Assembly: GCA_017468385.1 (NCBI GenBank)
Contig: JAFUIQ010000028.1
Location: forward strand, 1-62,108
Length of the DNA stretch: 62,108 nt
Direction: 5' to 3'
Source of the DNA: Clostridia bacterium
GTDB lineage: Bacteria; Bacillota; Clostridia; Oscillospirales; CAG-272
Numbering within the stretch: the first letter of the stretch is position 1; each line of letters opens with the position of its first letter. This document shows positions 7,681-28,803 of the stretch, in pieces. The translations under genes and the position numbers were made by a program. Below the pieces are notes generated by a model that was given only the letters and a program-made list of their open reading frames with translations, ran no database searches and was not told the DNA's origin.

Positions 7681-10209
7681 TTATTGTTTGGCTTCGTACC
7701 AGTTTTTTCCCGTCGCCACATCGACGGTCAAAGGAACCCGAGTTTCGACGGCGTGCTCCATTTCGTTTTTCAGAATGACCGCGGCGGCATCCGCATCCTT
7801 TTTGGATACTTCCACAATCAGTTCGTCATGCACCTGCAGAATCAACTTCGCATCCAGCCCGCTGTCGCGCAAAGCCCGGCGGGTGCGGATCATGGCGATC
7901 TTGATGATGTCGGCGGCGCTTCCCTGAATGGGGCTGTTCATAGCCACCCGCTCCCCGAAGGCGCGGATGTTCCGGTTCTGGGAGGCAAGCTCCGGGATGA
8001 GCCGCTTGCGGCCGAACATGGTGGTGGTATATCCGTCCCGCTTGGCGTTTTCCACGGAGGATTTCAGATAGGCATCCACCCCCGGATAGGTGGCCAGATA
8101 ATTGTGGATGTATTCACCGGCCTGACGGCGGGTGATCCCCAGATCCTGGGAAAGGGAATAGTCGCCGATGCCGTATACGATGCCGAAATTCACCGCCTTG
8201 GCCTTGGAGCGCAGCTCCGGCGTCACCGCTTCCAGCGGCACGCGGAATACCTGGGCCGCGGTGGATGTGTGAATGTCACTGCCTGCCAGGAAGGCCGTCT
8301 GCATGTTCACATCTCCGGAAATCTCGGCCAGCAGCCGCAATTCGATCTGGGAATAGTCCGCGTCCAGCAGAATGTGATCGTCATCCGACGCGGTGAAATA
8401 CCGGCGCATCTCCCGACCCAACTGCCCCCGCACGGGGATGTTCTGCATATTCGGATCGGTGGAGGAAATACGGCCCGTGGCCGTGCCGGTCTGGTTGAAG
8501 CGGGAGTGGAGTTTTCCGCCCTCATCCGCCAGAGCGATCAGATTGTCTCCGTAGGTGCTGCACAGCTTGATCAGCTGGCGGTAGTCCAGAATGGCACCGA
8601 TGATGGGGTGCATAGGGCGCAGTTTGGACAGGGTTTCCGCGTCGGTGGCATAGCCTGTCCGCGTCTTCTTTTTGCTGGGCAGGCCCAGACGCTCAAAGAG
8701 AATCTCGCCCAACTGCTTGGGGGAGTTCAGATTGAACAGCGTGCCCGCCATGGTGTAGATCTGCGCCGCCAGTTCCGATGCGGCGTTCTGCAAGGTGCCG
8801 ATGTACTGGTGCAGACCGTCTGCGTCCAGACGGAATCCCTCCATCTCCATATCAGCCAGTACCTCGGACAGCGGAATCTCAATATCCCGCAATAGATCGC
8901 CCATGCCCGCCTCAGCCACTTTCTCCCGCAATACAGGTGCCAGATCGGCCACCATGGCGGCCTCGGCGGCTATGCCCGTGTCGGTCATGTTCATCATAAG
9001 GTACCGAAGCACCGTTTTGTCCATGGGATAATTTCCCTCACCGGGGGAGAGCAGATAGGCGGCCAGCATGGTGTCAAAGACACACGTTACCTGAACGCCG
9101 CGGGCGGCCAGTGCCTTGTACAGCCGCTTGTAATCGTGACAGATTACCGACCGTCCGCCGATCCGATCCCGCAGTACATCACTGGAAATGTCCGGGGGCA
9201 GAATCCGCCGCATCTCCCCGCAGAGCAGGGCGAGCGTACCGTCCTCGGCTGCCGCCAGAATCACATCGCCCTCGGCGGGCAGAGATTCCCCGGATGCATA
9301 CGGGGCGAACTCCGGTGTGGCCGGTGCCACCTCTACCGGACTGGCTCCGGCGGACGCATCGGGCAGAAAGCGGGATTTCAGCGCGGTGAATTCCAACTCA
9401 TCAAATAGTTCACTCAGCGCGGCCGCATCGAATTTTGCTTCAGCCTCTTCCTCGGGGATGGGCGCGGTGCGGCAGATGGTCGCCAGATCCTTGGACAGAA
9501 AGGCGCTGTCCCGTCCTGCATGCAGCTTGGACAGTACCGATTTGGTCACGCCCAAAGCCTCCGGATCCGCATACACCGCTTCCAGCGTGCCTGCCTGGGC
9601 GATCAGCTTCAGTGCAGTTTTCTCACCGATGCCGGGCACGCCGGGGATGTTGTCCGAGGTGTCGCCCATCAGCGCCTTCACATCGATCAGACGAATCGGA
9701 TCGATGCCGTATTCCTCCCGGAACACCTCCGGCGTGTACAGAATATCCTCTTTGGTCTTGGCCAGAATCACCGTGGTGGAGGCGGAGATCAGCTGCAGCG
9801 AGTCCCGGTCTCCCGTGAGAACAAAGGTGTGCGTGCCGCCCTCCCGCTCCGCCGCGGCGGATACGGTTCCCAGTACATCATCGGCTTCGTATCCCTCCAG
9901 GGCGATTACCCGGCAGCCCAGTGCCGCGGCGGCCCGCTTGGCGTAGGGCAGCTGGATGGCCAGCTCCTCCGGCATGCCCTTGCGGTTGGCCTTGTACTGG
10001 CTGTACATATTGTGCCGGAAGGTGGGGGCCTTCCGGTCGAATGCGCATACCATGCGGGTGGGGGAAAGTGCGTCGATGTGCTTTTTCAGAATGTTCAGAA
10101 AACCGTATACGGCATTGGTGGGGATCCCCTCCTTGGTGGAGAGGGGACGGATACCGTAAAACGCACGGTTCAGGATACTGTTGCCATCGATTATCAGCAA
10201 ATTTTCCAT
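7681..10209 (-). CDS. polA: DNA polymerase I
   Basis: An 842-residue PolA, which fills gaps and removes RNA primers during lagging-strand synthesis and repair. The N-terminal 5' nuclease domain (about residues 1-290) shows IDGNSILNRAFYG, YEADDVLGT, LTGDRDSLQLI and GDTSDNIPGVPGIGEKTA. The middle domain (about 300-470) has the exonuclease fold, but I cannot find the DEDD acidic residues, so proofreading is probably absent, as in many Bacillota. The polymerase domain has motif A DADYSQIELRLLA (near 613), motif B RSKAKAVNFGIVYG (near 665) and motif C QVHDELIVE (near 790). The start is the ATG at 10209, with a weak AAAGG site. A separate 5' nuclease homolog is at 40048. Confidence 0.97.
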   Translation of the reverse strand: MENLLIIDGNSILNRAFYGIRPLSTKEGIPTNAVYGFLNILKKHIDALSPTRMVCAFDRKAPTFRHNMYSQYKANRKGMPEELAIQLPYAKRAAAALGCRVIALEGYEADDVLGTVSAAAEREGGTHTFVLTGDRDSLQLISASTTVILAKTKEDILYTPEVFREEYGIDPIRLIDVKALMGDTSDNIPGVPGIGEKTALKLIAQAGTLEAVYADPEALGVTKSVLSKLHAGRDSAFLSKDLATICRTAPIPEEEAEAKFDAAALSELFDELEFTALKSRFLPDASAGASPVEVAPATPEFAPYASGESLPAEGDVILAAAEDGTLALLCGEMRRILPPDISSDVLRDRIGGRSVICHDYKRLYKALAARGVQVTCVFDTMLAAYLLSPGEGNYPMDKTVLRYLMMNMTDTGIAAEAAMVADLAPVLREKVAEAGMGDLLRDIEIPLSEVLADMEMEGFRLDADGLHQYIGTLQNAASELAAQIYTMAGTLFNLNSPKQLGEILFERLGLPSKKKTRTGYATDAETLSKLRPMHPIIGAILDYRQLIKLCSTYGDNLIALADEGGKLHSRFNQTGTATGRISSTDPNMQNIPVRGQLGREMRRYFTASDDDHILLDADYSQIELRLLAEISGDVNMQTAFLAGSDIHTSTAAQVFRVPLEAVTPELRSKAKAVNFGIVYGIGDYSLSQDLGITRRQAGEYIHNYLATYPGVDAYLKSSVENAKRDGYTTTMFGRKRLIPELASQNRNIRAFGERVAMNSPIQGSAADIIKIAMIRTRRALRDSGLDAKLILQVHDELIVEVSKKDADAAAVILKNEMEHAVETRVPLTVDVATGKNWYEAKQ

Positions 10210-22721: not shown

Positions 22722-24980
22722 ATGAAACTGATGTATGAATTGGGCCGTGAGGATCGGGAGGCATTGGAGAATGCCTTGCAGGAGGGCGAATCCCTTATGT
22801 ACTGCGTCCCGTTCAATATGTACGGGGAATCCTTCGTGAACGGATTCACCGCCGTCACGGACCGGAATATATTCTGCCTTCTGGACGGACGGGTGGTGGG
22901 GCGGTTTGCCCTGGCCCGCTGCCGGGATTTCTCCACTGAGGTCCTGTACGGCAACTGTACCTTCCTCACGGTGTACGACGGATCGCCTACCGTGATCTGC
23001 CGCTTTATCTCCGGACGCAATCTGCCCCGGTATTCTGTCCTCGTCAAAGCCTGCGATCTGTTGGCACAGCGTGCCGCCGCCGGTGAGAAGCCGGGGGATC
23101 CTTTGACCAACGGGGAGCCGGAGCGCTTCTGCCCCAAATGCGGACGTCCCTTTGTCCGCGGCACCATGATGTGCCCCTTCTGCCGCAGTAAAAAGGAAGT
23201 ATACAAAAAACTGTGGGGCCTGACCAAAGGTCTCAGACTCATGCTTTTGTTCCCTCTGATCGTGGCGGCTTTTTCCGTGGCGTTTCAGTTTATTGTTCCC
23301 GCCATTCAGCGAGCCGCCGTCAACGATTTCATTACCAATGAGGCGATCCGCCCCGTGTTGCCGGGCAGTCCCGCCATGCGCGGCTTTATCGGCATCATCG
23401 CCGCCATCGTGTCCATCGATCTGTTCCAGCGCCTCTTGAACGTGATCCAGGGCAGATTGAACGTGATCTCCGGCAACCGCTTCACCCTTATGATGCGGGC
23501 GCTCTTGTACGAGAAGATCCAGAATCTGTCCCTGTCCTCCATCTCCAACAAATCCACCGGCGATCTGATGGGCCGCATCACAGGCGACGTCAGTACCGTC
23601 CAGGGATTTATGACGGGCCAATTGCCCAGTTTGTTTGTGCAGGTGGTGTCCTTCATTCTGGCGGTGTTCCTTCTGTTCTATATGAACCCGCTGATGAGCC
23701 TGTTCGTCTTTGTGCCGATCCCTCTGGTGGTCTTTCTCATCTACAAATTCTGGGAAACGGTGCAGCTCCGCAACCGAAAAGCGTGGATGCTGAACCGCCG
23801 GGTGAATCAGCTTCTGCAGGATACCTTGAACGGCATCCGCGTAGTGAAGACCTTTGGCAGCGAGGAGCGTGAGATCCGGCGCTTTGCCGACGCAACCCAG
23901 CGATCCTCCCGCCAGAGCGAATCCAACGCCAAACTGTTCGATACCATCTTCCCCCTCTTGGGATTTGCCGTCCGCTTCGGCAGTTATCTGATTTTGTTCT
24001 ACGGCAATATCATGCTGTTCAAAGGCAGTATGACCGTGGGCGAACTCCATCAGTTCAATTCCTACGCCAATATCATCTACGGCCCGCTGATGTACATCAC
24101 CTTCATCCCCCGCAATATCTCCAACTTCCTCACTTCTCTCGGAAAGGTATTGGAGATCCTGGAGGAACAGCCGGAGATCTCCGATATCAGCATGCCCATC
24201 GATATCCGTATTGAGGGCGACATCTCCTTCAAGGATGTTACCTTCGGCTACGAAACCTACAATCCTGTTCTGGAGCATATCGATCTGGATGTGAAGCAGG
24301 GCGAGATGATCGGCATCGTGGGCCAATCCGGCTCGGGTAAAACCACCCTCATCAATCTGCTCATGCGCCTGTACGACGTGACGGAGGGCGCCATCACCAT
24401 CGATCAGGTCAATATCAAGGATATCTCCCAGAGTACGCTCCGCTCCCAGATCGGCGTGGTGCTCCAGGAAACCCATCTGTTCTCCGGCTCGATCCGGGAC
24501 AATATCCGCTATTCCAAACCGCTGGCAACGGATGAAGAAGTGGTGGCCGCCGCCAAACTGGCCAACGCCCACGATTTCATCGTCGGCCTGCCGGAGGGAT
24601 ATAACACCATGGTGGGCGAGAAGGGATATTCGCTGTCCGGCGGTGAGAGACAGCGCGTGGCCATCGCCCGTGCGCTGATTCACGATCCCCAGATCCTCAT
24701 CCTGGATGAGGCCACCGCGGCCCTGGATACGGAAACGGAGAAACTGATCCAGGATGCCATCAATAAACTGACGGAAAACCGTACCACCTTTGCCATCGCC
24801 CACCGCCTGTCCACTTTGCGCAACGCGGATCGGCTGATCGTTCTGGATCGGGGTAAGCTGGTGGAGTGCGGCACCCATCAGGAATTGCTGGAGCAAAAGG
24901 GATTCTACTGGCGCCTGGTTATGGCCCAGCGACAGGATTCCGGCATGATGAAAAAGCCCGCCGCCAAGAGCGCGGGATAA
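22722..24980 (+). CDS. Second ABC exporter with zinc-ribbon domain
   Basis: A 752-residue half-transporter partner of the 19559 product. The N-terminal 135 residues form a soluble domain (AVTDRNIFCLLDGRVVGRFAL resembles a PH-like or GRAM-like strand pattern), then a zinc ribbon (CPKCGRPFVRGTMMCPFC, about residues 138-155), six membrane helices (about 170-470) and the nucleotide-binding domain (Walker A GQSGSGKTT, LSGGERQRVAIARAL, LILDEATAALD, AHRLST). Both halves keep the catalytic glutamate, so both ATP sites could work. The normal terminator of this operon seems to have been split by the 25001-27699 insertion. Confidence 0.9.
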   Translation: MKLMYELGREDREALENALQEGESLMYCVPFNMYGESFVNGFTAVTDRNIFCLLDGRVVGRFALARCRDFSTEVLYGNCTFLTVYDGSPTVICRFISGRNLPRYSVLVKACDLLAQRAAAGEKPGDPLTNGEPERFCPKCGRPFVRGTMMCPFCRSKKEVYKKLWGLTKGLRLMLLFPLIVAAFSVAFQFIVPAIQRAAVNDFITNEAIRPVLPGSPAMRGFIGIIAAIVSIDLFQRLLNVIQGRLNVISGNRFTLMMRALLYEKIQNLSLSSISNKSTGDLMGRITGDVSTVQGFMTGQLPSLFVQVVSFILAVFLLFYMNPLMSLFVFVPIPLVVFLIYKFWETVQLRNRKAWMLNRRVNQLLQDTLNGIRVVKTFGSEEREIRRFADATQRSSRQSESNAKLFDTIFPLLGFAVRFGSYLILFYGNIMLFKGSMTVGELHQFNSYANIIYGPLMYITFIPRNISNFLTSLGKVLEILEEQPEISDISMPIDIRIEGDISFKDVTFGYETYNPVLEHIDLDVKQGEMIGIVGQSGSGKTTLINLLMRLYDVTEGAITIDQVNIKDISQSTLRSQIGVVLQETHLFSGSIRDNIRYSKPLATDEEVVAAAKLANAHDFIVGLPEGYNTMVGEKGYSLSGGERQRVAIARALIHDPQILILDEATAALDTETEKLIQDAINKLTENRTTFAIAHRLSTLRNADRLIVLDRGKLVECGTHQELLEQKGFYWRLVMAQRQDSGMMKKPAAKSAG

Positions 24981-24981
24981 C

Positions 24982-25000
24982 AAAAAAGGATCGCCTGCGG
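24982..25000 (+). repeat. Left half of a split terminator and left direct repeat
   Basis: An A run followed by GGATCGCCTGCGG forms the left arm and loop of a terminator but has no right arm here. The last 14 bases (24987-25000) are identical to 27700-27713, where the complementary right arm and T run are found. Confidence 0.7.
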
Positions 25001-25054
25001 CGGCTTCCCATGCGACAGTATGAAAGCATTACTGACATAGGAGCCGTGCAGGCG
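24992..25054 (+). other. Structured 3' region after the ABC exporter operon
   Basis: CGCCTGC (24992-24998) pairs with GCAGGCG (25048-25054), and the inner GGCTTCC can pair with GGAGCC, giving a long imperfect hairpin with no T run. A normal terminator follows at 25071. It could be a structured transcript end or an end of the inserted cassette. Confidence 0.4.
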
Positions 25055-25070
25055 TGCGAGAAAAATAATT

Positions 25071-25108
25071 GGCGATACTTGGCGGATAGCCGGGTGTCGC
25101 CTTTTCTC
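25071..25108 (+). terminator. Intrinsic terminator
   Basis: A long stem (GGCGATAC with GTGTCGCC, extended by inner GGC/GCC pairs) is followed by a T-rich tract. It would stop transcripts from the ABC exporter operon. Confidence 0.75.
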
Positions 25109-25173
25109 TCTTGAACCGTTAAGACACGGAAAACGACCGAACAGACAACAATGAACATTTCGCGTTGTGTATT

Positions 25174-25182
25174 TGCTATAAT
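25174..25182 (+). promoter_or_regulatory. Extended -10 promoter of the ABC/LytTR operon
   Basis: TGCTATAAT (25174-25182) has no good -35 and lies 37 bases before the ATG at 25220. Such promoters often need an activator or are controlled by a LytTR protein. Confidence 0.55.
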
Positions 25183-25219
25183 AATATATGCAAATAAAAC
25201 CGAAATGAGGATACCGCAA

Positions 25220-25948
25220 ATGCAGGCAATACAAACGACCCAGCTTGTCAAACAGTACAAAAACCGGACTGCCGTAGATAAGCTCGATTTGGAAATACGG
25301 CAGGGTGAATTATTCGCTTTGCTTGGTATAAACGGCGCGGGCAAAACCACCACTATCAAAATGCTTTCCTGCTTGACCAAACCTCCGGCCGGGGATGCTA
25401 TCGTGGGCGGCCACAGCATTACAAAGGAGTCGAAGCAGGTAAAGCGGCTGATTAGTGTATCTCCCCAGGAGAGTGCGGTTGCTCCCAATCTTTCCGTAAA
25501 GGAAAATCTGGAGCTGATCTGCGGGATTCACGGATTCTCCCGGGAACAAACGAAAGAAAAGATTCAGGAGCTATCCAAGCAATTTTCCTTGGACAGTGTT
25601 CTTCAGAGGAAAGCCGGCAAGCTGTCCGGCGGTTGGCAGCGCCGTGTCAGCATTGCCATGGCATGGATCAGCGAACCAAAAATACTATTCCTGGACGAAC
25701 CTACGCTTGGTTTGGATGTCATTGCAAGGCACGAGTTGTGGGAAGCGATTCGCTCTTTGAAAGGAAAAGTGACGATTATCCTGACGACGCACTATATGGA
25801 GGAAGCCGAGGCACTTTCAGACCGCATAGGCATTATGAAAAACGGCCGTCTTCTTGCGCAAGGAACGGTGGAAGAACTGAATAAGCGTGCCGGAACAAGC
25901 GATTTTGAAACAGCGTTCGTTTCCATTGTGAAGGAGGATGCGGTATGA
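25220..25948 (+). CDS. ABC-2 type transporter ATPase
   Basis: A 242-residue nucleotide-binding protein of the drug/antibiotic exporter class (CcmA/DrrA-like). Walker A is GINGAGKTT (about residues 38-46), the signature is LSGGWQRRVSIAMAW, Walker B is ILFLDEPTLGLD and the switch His is in TTHYMEEAE. The start is the ATG at 25220, 8 bases after GAGGA; the earlier ATG at 25205 would overlap that site. It overlaps the permease gene by 4 bases (ATGA). The operon continues with a LytTR regulator and a DUF3021 protein, a recurrent set in Bacillota for self-regulated export. Confidence 0.93.
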   Translation: MQAIQTTQLVKQYKNRTAVDKLDLEIRQGELFALLGINGAGKTTTIKMLSCLTKPPAGDAIVGGHSITKESKQVKRLISVSPQESAVAPNLSVKENLELICGIHGFSREQTKEKIQELSKQFSLDSVLQRKAGKLSGGWQRRVSIAMAWISEPKILFLDEPTLGLDVIARHELWEAIRSLKGKVTIILTTHYMEEAEALSDRIGIMKNGRLLAQGTVEELNKRAGTSDFETAFVSIVKEDAV

Positions 25949-26676
25949 GAAGGATGAGTTTTGCCAAAAGATGTACGAAAGAAATTCTGCGCGATCCGAT
26001 CAATCTTGCCTTCGGCTTGGGATTTCCTTTGGTCTTATTATTGCTCCTTAGTGCTATTCAGGCCAACATTCCGGTGAGCCTGTTTGAAATCGACACTCTG
26101 ACCCCCGGCATTACCGTATTCGGACTGTCGTTTATGACACTTTTTTCCGCCACCCTGATTGCCAAAGACCGGGAAAGTGCCTTCCTGCAACGATTGTACA
26201 CAACACCGCTGACGGGATTTGACTTTATCATAGGCTATATGCTGCCCATCCTGCCCATTGCCCTCGGGCAGACGGTGATCTGCTATTTGTTTGCGATTCC
26301 CTTGGGACTGACTGTCAGCATAAACATGGTTTATGCCGTTGTGGGTATCATCCCTATGGCGATTTTCAATATTGCATTGGGACTCTTGTGCGGCAGCCTT
26401 TTGGGCGTAAAGCAGGTCGGCGGTATTTGCGGAGCACTGCTTACCAATCTTTCCGCATGGTTTTCCGGCGTTTGGTTTGATTTGAATCTTGTGGGCGGTA
26501 CTTTTAAGAGAATTGCCCATGCGCTTCCGTTCGTTCACGCAGCAGAACTGGAAAAAGCATTGTTCAACGGAAACTTGGAGGGCGCAGTTTCGCACATTCT
26601 GCCGATTCTTCTGTACAGTGCGCTGATAACAGTGGCGGCTGTGTTCTGCTTTCTTTGGCAAATGAAAAAACAGTAA
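25945..26676 (+). CDS. ABC-2 type transporter permease
   Basis: A 243-residue membrane protein with six predicted helices (about residues 18-38, 48-68, 92-115, 122-146, 155-172 and 215-238), the ABC-2 family layout. The conserved-looking FGLSFMTLFSATLIAKDRESAFLQRLYTTPL region matches the family's cytoplasmic loop. It overlaps the ATPase gene by 4 bases, so the two are translationally coupled partners. The substrate is unknown; peptide or drug export is most likely for this class. Confidence 0.92.
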   Translation: MRRMSFAKRCTKEILRDPINLAFGLGFPLVLLLLLSAIQANIPVSLFEIDTLTPGITVFGLSFMTLFSATLIAKDRESAFLQRLYTTPLTGFDFIIGYMLPILPIALGQTVICYLFAIPLGLTVSINMVYAVVGIIPMAIFNIALGLLCGSLLGVKQVGGICGALLTNLSAWFSGVWFDLNLVGGTFKRIAHALPFVHAAELEKALFNGNLEGAVSHILPILLYSALITVAAVFCFLWQMKKQ

Positions 26677-26688
26677 GGAGCCCGGGAG

Positions 26689-27132
26689 ATGAAATATAAA
26701 CTTATTATCGACAAAAACGCAGACGAGGAAATCATAGCAATCGTTCACGCCCCCTCCTCGCTGACACAGCAGATTGAAAATTTTGTCTGCAGTTATTCCG
26801 GTGCGGACTACATGATGGGGTACAGAGATGACGAGATGCGGAAGTTGGCGTTTGAGGAAATAGAATGTATTACCGTTCTTGACAGAAAAGTGATTGCCAT
26901 TGACGCGAAAGGCAACCGCTATTCGCTCAAGGACAGGCTTCGCGATTTAGAGGATGTTTTGCCCTCTTATTTCATCCGCATTAACAAATCTACTCTTGCC
27001 AATGAACATCGGATTCTGCGCTTTGATGCGGTATTCAGCGGTGGCGTGGATGCCGTGTTTGCGTGCGGATATAGGGAGTATGTTTCCAGACGATGCTTTG
27101 CGGAAATCAGACGGAGGTATGAGAGAGTATGA
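26689..27132 (+). CDS. LytTR-type DNA-binding regulator
   Basis: A 147-residue protein whose C-terminal 95 residues form a LytTR DNA-binding domain: IECITVLDRKVIAIDAKGNRYSLKDRLRDLEDVLPSYFIRINKSTLAN (about residues 58-105), then the final strand and helix. There is no receiver domain, so it is the short LytTR form typically co-encoded with DUF3021 membrane proteins, which are thought to inhibit it. It probably regulates this operon. The ribosome binding site AAGGAG lies near the ATG, 12 bases after the permease stop. The LytTR and DUF3021 genes overlap by 4 bases. Confidence 0.92.
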   Translation: MKYKLIIDKNADEEIIAIVHAPSSLTQQIENFVCSYSGADYMMGYRDDEMRKLAFEEIECITVLDRKVIAIDAKGNRYSLKDRLRDLEDVLPSYFIRINKSTLANEHRILRFDAVFSGGVDAVFACGYREYVSRRCFAEIRRRYERV

Positions 27133-27572
27133 AGAAGTTTGTTTCAGAATTTTTGCGCCGCGGCTTGATCGCCTGCGGTTTGGGCCCTATCGTATTGGCG
27201 ACAGTATATTGGATCCTGCAGCAGACTGCTGCTGTGGAGACGTTAACGGTCAACCAAGTCTGCATCGGGATTTTTTCTTTATCCGCACTTGCCTTTATTG
27301 CGGGCGGCATGAATGTCATCTACCAGATCGAACGATTGCCCTTGATGGTGGCCATCCTGATTCACGGCGGCGTGTTATATATCAGTTATCTGGCCACTTA
27401 TTTGCTCAACGGTTGGCTGGAATGGGGCGTGACTCCCATTTTGGTTTTCTCAGGCATATTCGTTGTTGGCTATTTTGCGATCTGGGCGATCATTTATTCT
27501 ATCATCAAGAGGAATACAGAAAAACTCAACGAAGTGCTGAAGCAAAGACAGCAGACTGCAGAATATAAATAA
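27129..27572 (+). CDS. DUF3021 membrane protein
   Basis: A 147-residue protein with four hydrophobic helices (about residues 10-30, 43-63, 73-95 and 101-124) and a charged C-terminal tail. The length and topology match DUF3021, the usual membrane partner of short LytTR regulators. By analogy it holds the regulator inactive until a membrane signal arrives; the signal is unknown. The start overlaps the LytTR stop by 4 bases. A strong hairpin (27644-27679) and a terminator follow. Confidence 0.88.
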   Translation: MKKFVSEFLRRGLIACGLGPIVLATVYWILQQTAAVETLTVNQVCIGIFSLSALAFIAGGMNVIYQIERLPLMVAILIHGGVLYISYLATYLLNGWLEWGVTPILVFSGIFVVGYFAIWAIIYSIIKRNTEKLNEVLKQRQQTAEYK

Positions 27573-27643
27573 CAGGCGGAGATTGTGGGAGAGCAAGATT
27601 CCGCCGCGGGAGGACCATCCCCAAACCTTGCGTCTGTGACAAT

Positions 27644-27679
27644 CCGAAAGCGGCATGATTTGCATCATGCCGCTTTCGG
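27644..27679. repeat. Perfect 15-bp inverted repeat
   Basis: 27644-27658 pairs perfectly with 27665-27679 around a 6-base loop. No T run follows, so it is not a typical terminator by itself. It lies 21 bases before the right direct repeat of the putative insertion. Confidence 0.8.
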
Positions 27680-27699
27680 GAATAGTATCAGAGCGTTTT

Positions 27700-27726
27700 A
27701 GGATCGCCTGCGGGCGATCCTTTTTT
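27700..27726 (+). terminator. Complete intrinsic terminator and right direct repeat
   Basis: AGGATCGCC pairs with GGCGATCCT around TGCG, followed by TTTTTT. Its first 14 bases match the orphan left arm at 24987-25000. The T run complements the A run at 24982-24987 rather than the sequence just upstream here, as expected if the original terminator had been split. Confidence 0.88.
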
Positions 27727-27843
27727 GTTCCATCAATCACATTTTTTGTCTCTTCACTTACTCCATCCGTTTTATCGGTAGGGGACGGCGCCCTCGACGT
27801 CCCTCGACAAGAAAAACTTGTGAATACTCGGTTTTCAATCAAA

Positions 27844-27902
27844 CGGCAGTTGATTTCATCAATGCCGCCTCCATTGAAATCAACTACGCGTTGTGATATG
27901 AT
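27844..27902 (+). promoter_or_regulatory. Sigma-A promoter with overlapping inverted repeats
   Basis: TTGAAA (27874-27879), 17 bases, TATGAT (27897-27902). The -35 is inside the right arm of an 11-bp inverted repeat (27848-27858 with 27875-27885). The left arm can instead pair locally as CGGCA..TTGAT with ATCAA..TGCCG (27844-27867). This may be the operator of the HTH gene at 27958. Confidence 0.55.
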
Positions 27903-27957: not shown

Positions 27958-28803
27958 ATGAGTATTGAGATAATTGGCAAACAGATCGCCACCTTGCGCA
28001 AAGAAAAAGGAATAAAACAAGAAGAACTCGCGACATATGTAGGTGTAAGCACACAGGCAGTTTCGAAATGGGAAAACGGAGGTGTTCCGGATACGGATCT
28101 TTTGCCCAAAATCGCGGACTTCTTTGCGGTTTCCGTGGATTTCTTATTTGGGCGCAATATCACGGATTACAGCGATTTGCAGTCTGCGCTTATTGAAAAA
28201 GTGAATAACACTCCCTATGACCTGCGATTCAAGCAAGTGTTCAATTATTGTTGGGATATGGAACGGGCCCTTATGGATGATATCCATCTGATTGAACGAA
28301 ACAGCATTGAAGACTACGAAAAAGAAATCGATGAAACCGCCCAGCACTACTCGTCCATGGAGACAGATCATGGTTTTACACGAATGGGTGTGGCAAATCG
28401 GCTGCAATACTTTTTGATTGTGCCCGAAACCAAGGATACAGACGCGGCATATTTCCATGGTATCGACTATCCTGCTTTTTTCAAAGATTTCTCCGATGCA
28501 GATGTTTTTAATGCATGCGTTCTGCTGCACCAACGGGAGCACAAAAAAGCGTTTACGCCGCTTTTGCTTGTGAAAACCATGGGAATGACACCTGAAAAAT
28601 CAAATAAGGTATTGGAGATTTTGAAGAAATACAGCTTGGTGTACACCACGCAGATAGAAATGGACGATGAAGTGCAGACGGTTTATCATTTCAGCTCCAC
28701 CCCGTCATTTATTGCCTTGCTGATTTTCGCCAGAGAAGTGATAGACAAGCCAAGGATTTTCTGCTACTCTTGTCAAAACAGAGGCAAACCTTATCTGAAA
28801 TAA
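27958..28803 (+). CDS. HTH-XRE regulator with C-terminal sensor-like domain
   Basis: A 281-residue protein. The first 65 residues form a Cro/CI-type helix-turn-helix (LRKEKGIKQEELATYVGV, TQAVSKWENG, then FFAVSVDFLFGR). The remainder is soluble and unrecognised, with helical segments and a winged-helix-like part around residues 190-250 (TMGMTPEKSNKVLEILKKYSLVY). The sequence near the end (RIFCYSCQNRGKPYLK) has a CysSerCys pair that could bind a metal. An AAGGAG site lies 7 bases before the ATG; the longer frame from 27655 runs through terminators. Targets are unknown. The start of the repeat-rich leader suggests self-control. Confidence 0.85.
   Translation: MSIEIIGKQIATLRKEKGIKQEELATYVGVSTQAVSKWENGGVPDTDLLPKIADFFAVSVDFLFGRNITDYSDLQSALIEKVNNTPYDLRFKQVFNYCWDMERALMDDIHLIERNSIEDYEKEIDETAQHYSSMETDHGFTRMGVANRLQYFLIVPETKDTDAAYFHGIDYPAFFKDFSDADVFNACVLLHQREHKKAFTPLLLVKTMGMTPEKSNKVLEILKKYSLVYTTQIEMDDEVQTVYHFSSTPSFIALLIFAREVIDKPRIFCYSCQNRGKPYLK

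Follow-up and report, generated by a model that had tools for sequence, protein, structure and literature searches.

A 62,108-nt stretch (positions 1–62,108) of contig JAFUIQ010000028.1 of the Clostridia bacterium assembly GCA_017468385.1 (the window) carries, directly after the second of its ABC exporter genes (an open reading frame, ORF, at 22722–24980), a 2.7-kb insert that separates the two halves of an intrinsic terminator. All features described here lie on the forward strand, and labels beginning with G and L denote genomes and loci. The insert contains a four-gene set composed of an ABC transporter ATPase (25220–25948; PF00005, E = 1.6e-32), an ABC-2 type permease (25945–26676; PF01061, E = 7.3e-18), a LytTR DNA-binding regulator (26689–27132; PF04397, E = 8.5e-14) and a DUF3021 membrane protein (27129–27572; PF11457, E = 4.4e-21), matches that bear out the gene content given in an initial annotation of the locus. 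Ahead of these genes, the sequence shows two direct repeats ACCG-NNN-AGACA 21 bp apart (25115–25147), which probably form a LytTR operator and would fit self-regulation of the set by its own LytTR protein. Homologous ABC/LytTR/DUF3021 sets occur in other genomes of the bacterial family, with up to 79% identity over the whole length, and a similar repeat pair was seen by eye in 15 of 19 homologous cassettes, the other four being cut or not displayed that far. Neither a large serine recombinase (LSR) nor a relaxase or mobilization protein was found among the ORFs and the four Pfam-tested proteins within 25001–27713, in agreement with the earlier statement that the insert holds no integrase.

The split terminator and its host locus

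The exporter gene is followed by an A-run, a 5' arm and a loop (24979–24998), which constitute the left half of the terminator and the putative left half of attB, and the 3' arm with its T-run is found at 27713–27729. These halves form a perfect inverted repeat of 17/17 bp (AACAAAAAAGGATCGCC at 24979–24995 and GGCGATCCTTTTTTGTT at 27713–27729). When the flanks are joined they fold into a single A-run/hairpin/T-run with a 17-bp stem and a 4-nt loop at −26.8 kcal/mol, whereas the left flank on its own (24979–25013) reaches −8.1 kcal/mol and has no T-run. The initial annotation had described a left arm and loop without a right arm after the exporter, with the right arm and T-run 2.7 kb further on, and this split is real; the stem restored by removal of the insert, which it gave as 13 bp, is actually 17 bp long. 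Both copies of the 14-bp direct repeat that it had reported, AGGATCGCCTGCGG, are indeed present, at 24987–25000 and 27700–27713. The 2.23-Mb assembly (93.64% complete) contains no third exact copy; copies with one mismatch occur at three other places.

The locus was compared within the genus, represented by five genomes including that of the window. The best matches of the exporter were found in G001, G003 and G002 (86%, 85% and 67% identity, respectively), and in all three the gene is followed, soon after its stop codon, by an intact terminator of different sequence (identified by eye) and by no cassette. In G004 the best exporter match is distant (43%), and no clear terminator was seen by eye after it. 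The znuB gene, which in the window comes after the cassette and a helix-turn-helix (HTH) gene, is separated from the exporter by ~0.1 kb in G002 and by ~4.4 kb in G001, and neither DUF3021 nor the HTH protein (27961–28803) gave a tblastn match in the stretches fetched from the four relatives. As the relatives have the exporter and a terminator without the cassette, and these two proteins were not found there, the window lineage has gained this DNA. Comparison with cassette-free relatives thus supports the insertion into a terminator that had been proposed, as do the mobile-element ends that the insert has on both sides. The DNA that holds the HTH_3 regulator gene (27961–28803), between cassette and znuB, is low in GC (42%), and this gene may be an acquisition separate from the cassette.

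Conserved ends of the insert

The initial annotation had overlooked a conserved leader at the left border, ~105 nt long and ending in a terminator of its own, and a conserved right end (~27600–27712). The leader (24999–25107), recognized by profile matching, covariation and folding, is of a type associated with tnpV, and has a terminator stem at ~25071–25101 followed by a T-run at 25102–25105; the segment 25060–25113 folds at −24.8 kcal/mol. Near its start lies the left end arm (25001–25021), a putative attP half-site whose sequence, CGGCTTCCCATGCGACAGTAT, is a divergent copy of TAGCTTCCAATAARACAGTAT in an alignment of 59 leaders, the window included. A left-end hidden Markov model (HMM) built without the window matches 25003–25105 with E = 3.5e-20. 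The next best match in the window, at 27805–27845 between the cassette and the HTH gene, is weak (13.4 bits, E = 0.0028) and is possibly a decayed leader.

DNA searches showed that 25003–25118 recurs apart from the cassette genes. The leader precedes an intact tnpV (PF14198) in the window's own genome (contig G000:C25) and in G083, and a truncated tnpV in G072. On G000:C25, a contig of 4,064 bases that ends within the element, this second left end with tnpV (538–653, locus L070) stands, by eye, after a half-terminator behind an upp-like gene. A covariance model made from four leaders, that of the window among them, gave matches in 35 of 395 genomes of the bacterial family and in 24 of 71 genera, the weakest of which include antisense ones. 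Pattern scanning of contigs yielded 79 leader stretches, 76 of them in records titled as metagenome-assembled genomes, mostly of gut Clostridia, and the remaining ones in a metagenomic scaffold and in the strain records of Yanshouia hominis BX1 and Holdemania sp. Marseille-P2844. Compensatory changes support the structure: 8 of the 12 pairs in the terminator stem change on both sides, and the whole leader has 54 cells with two-sided changes against a shuffled mean of 16.3 (59 sequences; six of 64 listed leaders were omitted from this alignment). The window's leader has no Rfam match at the gathering threshold, and lax thresholds gave nothing convincing that overlaps a leader; distant blastn gave no match to it in plasmid and phage collections.

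Upstream of the leaders, the DNA shows A-runs and GC-rich half-hairpins whose sequences differ. Between −25 and −6, 71 of 80 leader flanks have a run of four or more A, versus 60 of 542 control stretches taken 100–400 nt further upstream of leaders. Moreover, among the 75 leaders for which 700 nt or more of upstream sequence is available, 48 lie at most 120 nt from the end of a forward frame of at least 80 codons, compared with 322 of 1500 random positions. At ten loci (L121–L124, L126–L128, L130, L131 and L134) a second leader class (GGCGGGTGCTCGTAAAACAGTT...) was observed, in nine of them behind A-run half-terminators; it precedes tnpV in L123 and L127 and another gene in L128. At L137 (1671–1853), two left ends stand head to head ~55 bp apart, resembling a minimal palindromic element of two end arms.

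The right border consists of a probable relic of the right end's oriT side (27600–27640, GGGAGGACCATCCCCAAACCTTGC, matched by HMM), a perfect 16-bp hairpin (27644–27679) that is the counterpart of one at the 3' end of the relatives' recombinase gene, and the right end arm (27681–27711), a putative attP half-site that the right-end alignment and HMM identify as a divergent copy of ATACTGTTTTATTGGACCGCC. This end emerged from a search for complementary half-terminators 3' of the leaders. Five of the eight right-arm candidates (L163, L156, L205, L207 and L166) were dropped, having no right end there; for L166 a partner, L271, later turned up on a different contig of its genome. The other three (L167, L196 and L179, with arms 2.63, 1.38 and 2.82 kb away) have their right end in common. 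The window aligns with it at 27554–27714 in a model that included the window, and an HMM built without the window matches 27608–27706 (model positions 70–167) with E = 2.2e-6, the next best match in the window having E = 2.7. The ends of the element family carry inverted, pseudo-palindromic arms (CCAATAARACAGTAT / ATACTGTTTTATTGG), which are degenerate in the window. A T-run follows 20 of 22 right ends versus 118 of 660 control stretches, and the right-end arm tends to pair with the 3' arm of the target: at 22 right junctions, the actual combinations of arm and flank give better folds than mismatched ones (0 of 20000, or 21 of 20000 when the window is left out).

Pairing of the outer flanks was assessed in ten end pairs chosen by place (the same contig or locus, or a genome's only known left end and recombinase end) and not by flank. 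Complementary flanks, halves of one terminator, were found in seven, among them the one-contig elements of Yanshouia hominis BX1 and Holdemania sp. Marseille-P2844 (see below) and G370, with a 17-nt match across contigs; the total was reached by 13 of 100000 permutations. Five further pairs, including the window and one from G038, had been found through their arms or chosen by them, and were not counted. Junctions lined up by eye suggest a GG crossover dinucleotide, located at 24999–25000 (the first two leader positions) on the left and at 27712–27713 on the right. G occupies each of leader positions 1 and 2 in 93% of 80 leaders, and by eye GG at both junctions fits most paired elements.

Complete relatives and recombinase-less cassettes

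The right end in L118 overlaps the remnant of a reading frame in which DUF4368, a domain at the C-terminus of one LSR class, was detected (E = 9.6e-23). When this fragment was searched in 246 genomes of the bacterial family, recombinase frames were found directly before the right end in L219, L220, L221 and L222, and with the right end further off in L223 and L225, several of the frames being cut by contig ends. L221 belongs to G001, from the window's own genus, and there the LSR gene, cut by the contig start, lies beside the right end. Readings of the insert as a group II intron, an integron attC or an IS110 bridge-RNA system were set aside once the serine recombinase appeared, with no dedicated test.

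Yanshouia hominis BX1 has a complete element of 13.6 kb on one contig, in the order left end, tnpV, HTH, type I restriction system, MobC/NikA, relaxase, recombinase and right end; its recombinase, of 547 aa, has Resolvase, Recombinase, zinc-ribbon and DUF4368 domains. In Holdemania sp. Marseille-P2844 the ends are ~43 kb apart on one contig and a DUF4368 gene adjoins the right end. The flanks of both elements are halves of one terminator (AAAGGGCGGCC/GGCCGCCCTTT; ACAAAAAACCC/GGGTTTTTGT). Restriction-modification genes were seen behind tnpV in L276 (type I) and, by reading, in L104 (methylase-like frames).

The right-end model derived from the cassettes matches the Yanshouia element at two places, with model positions 3–114 at 9866–9978, directly upstream of mobC, and positions 97–175 at the true right end, after the LSR gene. 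The former segment, which L104 also has upstream of a frame that reads like Yanshouia MobC, is probably oriT. Because the matches are separate, the cassette-type right end is a fusion produced by internal deletion. L167, L196 and L179 have this fused right end and lack a recombinase gene inside the element; the fusion is also present in L138 and L259 (where the rest of the element is not seen), and the window's match, at model positions 70–167, spans the fusion. The cargo is an EcoRI-type methylase with a GmrSD/HNH protein in L179, an N6/N4 methylase beside another frame in L167, and a SHOCT protein in L196. The genome of L179 also has a recombinase gene with the family right end (L269), and therefore an enzyme that could act in trans is available there.

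The window thus presents a split terminator with a conserved end at each side, an arrangement that is found elsewhere and in which, in relatives, a recombinase gene adjoins the right end. On these grounds, the insert very probably belongs, as a member without a recombinase, to a family of integrative mobilizable elements with tnpV, a relaxase and an LSR (Tn4451/TnpX-like) that targets bidirectional intrinsic terminators. The idea of a mobile enzyme acting in trans, already raised in the initial annotation, gains support from the presence in the insert of both ends of a family whose complete members carry an LSR; the cassette was presumably integrated in trans, probably by the enzyme of a relative. 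In the proposed mechanism, a trans-acting recombinase would join the circular or incoming cassette to the terminator of the exporter, with crossover at GG, at the boundary between loop and 3' arm, so that the cassette would come to lie between the left and the right half of the hairpin. The predicted site before insertion is AACAAAAAAGGATCGCCTGCGGGCGATCCTTTTTTGTT. The left end would supply its own terminator and, at the right end, the element arm (GGAxCGCC) would pair with the 3' arm of the target, re-forming a terminator, and therefore both sides would stay insulated, which may be the benefit of the arrangement. Such cassettes may be mobile at present; that of the window may be fixed, because its end arms are degenerate.

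Alternative explanations and known systems

The exact 14-bp direct repeat on both sides of the insert could also be taken for a target-site duplication, one of the options in the initial annotation, left by a classical transposition event with the transposase in trans. Target duplication would predict repeats in other elements, and the 11 others with matched split terminators have none, so that we reject it for the family; tested on 12 elements, this hallmark of DDE transposons and miniature inverted-repeat transposable elements is absent. Moreover, across the family the ~12 nt that precede the right junction belong to the element and mostly read GGACCGCC, and the complete Yanshouia relative has a serine recombinase at its right end, all of which makes transposition of this kind very improbable. 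In the window, the last 12 nt of the right end arm (27700–27711) are identical to the left arm of the target (24987–24998); in the 11 other matched pairs, left flank and right-end arm are barely more similar than in mismatched pairs, the observed similarity being reached by 3249 of 20000 permutations. According to one study (PMC3783163), attP and attB of serine integrases are alike at positions 1–12 from the crossover, the recombinase-domain region, most clearly for phiC31 and Bxb1 and less so for A118. As the right arm is family sequence, the other elements lack the repeat and attP and attB are alike at these positions, we read the 14 bp as the GG crossover plus 12 bp over which the right arm of the element resembles the left arm of the target. 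Our guess is that this resemblance was later perfected by hairpin-templated correction.

If the cassette had arrived through recombination, homologous or illegitimate, between terminator sequences that recur, this would agree with the several homologous cassettes that sit elsewhere after intact-looking terminators, and with the part of the leader terminator carried by 3 of the 19 homologous cassettes. Against it, no exact copy of the 14-mer exists elsewhere in the genome, which also tells against recombination at short repeats and against the recurring terminator that the initial annotation had named as an alternative, and specific mobile-element ends lie at both junctions; we find this route scarcely credible. 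Within the interpretation of the insert as a member of the LSR family, and not in addition to it, a full element might have inserted long ago and decayed, the ABC set being captured later and the short form never having moved. The end arms are degenerate and homologues of the cargo occur without ends (the end models found no complete left or right end in the 19 homologous cassette loci), as such a history would have it. The right end, however, is the same kind of deletion fusion as that of further cassettes which lack a recombinase, have different cargo and sit in different terminators. This points to movement of the short form itself, and we regard the decayed-element history as rather unlikely.

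Several observations weigh against a recombinase-less element that targets terminators. A GG crossover is a poor fit in L179 and L196, in which GA or TG fits better. The flanks do not match in three of the ten pairs (L172, L213 and G402), the rule for choosing these pairs was set after several matches had already been seen, and by eye the second left end of G038 (L113) does not match the right end in L258. In the three homologous cassettes with part of the leader (L057, L061 and L069), its terminator half is present and the end arm is missing. No relative showed the exact empty site of the window's terminator, and the window's own genome, whose assembly is incomplete, gave four DUF4368 hits, no recombinase with this right end and no right-end pattern match.

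In gene content, the family resembles Tn4451/Tn4453 and Tn6104/Tn6106-type elements, with which it shares tnpV, mobilization genes and an LSR. Tn6104 also carries an ABC transporter (PMC3158075), and Tn4451 has a 2-bp crossover and low site specificity (PMC5704250). Unlike these types, the window element, which lacks recombinase and mobilization genes, appears to target an intrinsic terminator. Multi-targeting DUF4368 LSRs (Cp36 and its relatives) share both domain and clade description with the recombinases of the family, and the Cp36 motif, A-rich / AA / T-rich, has the geometry of a bidirectional terminator (PMC10083194); the probable core is GG here versus AA or TT for the Cp36 type. The window element has kept both attachment ends and lost integration and transfer genes, which is how a cis-mobilizable element (CIME) is defined in PMC5704250. 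In contrast to a CIME, it has a fused right end that recurs with several cargos, which points to a mobile lineage and not to a one-off decay. CTn7 of C. difficile, an LSR element with flanking 15-bp imperfect direct repeats (PMC3158075), is a precedent for repeats longer than the crossover and differs in being a conjugative transposon.

TnpX/TndX-like recombinases, tnpV elements and CIMEs are thus already known (PMC10083194, PMC3158075, PMC5704250). The word 'terminator' is absent from the main text of PMC10083194, PMC13137831 and PMC5704250 and apparently also from PMC3158075, and occurs once in PMC3783163. Neither terminators as targets of this LSR class nor a recombinase-less lineage was found in the literature searched, which consisted mostly of titles and starts of abstracts and covered few subscription journals.

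We consider it reasonably likely that, in gut Clostridia, a clade of LSRs uses the intrinsic terminator as attB, splitting it at the loop, that its elements re-insulate both sides, and that the same clade moves recombinase-less satellite cassettes, with a fused oriT/right end and with restriction systems, transporters or other cargo, from terminator to terminator. If true, multi-targeting serine recombinases would gain a biological target rule, intrinsic terminators, which are abundant, lie outside genes and tolerate insertion, and which the A-rich/T-rich motif of one clade member fits. It would also explain the spread of short gene sets without a mobility gene, offer a test for annotation (split terminators with end arms) and perhaps provide terminator-targeting enzymes for genome tools in Clostridia.

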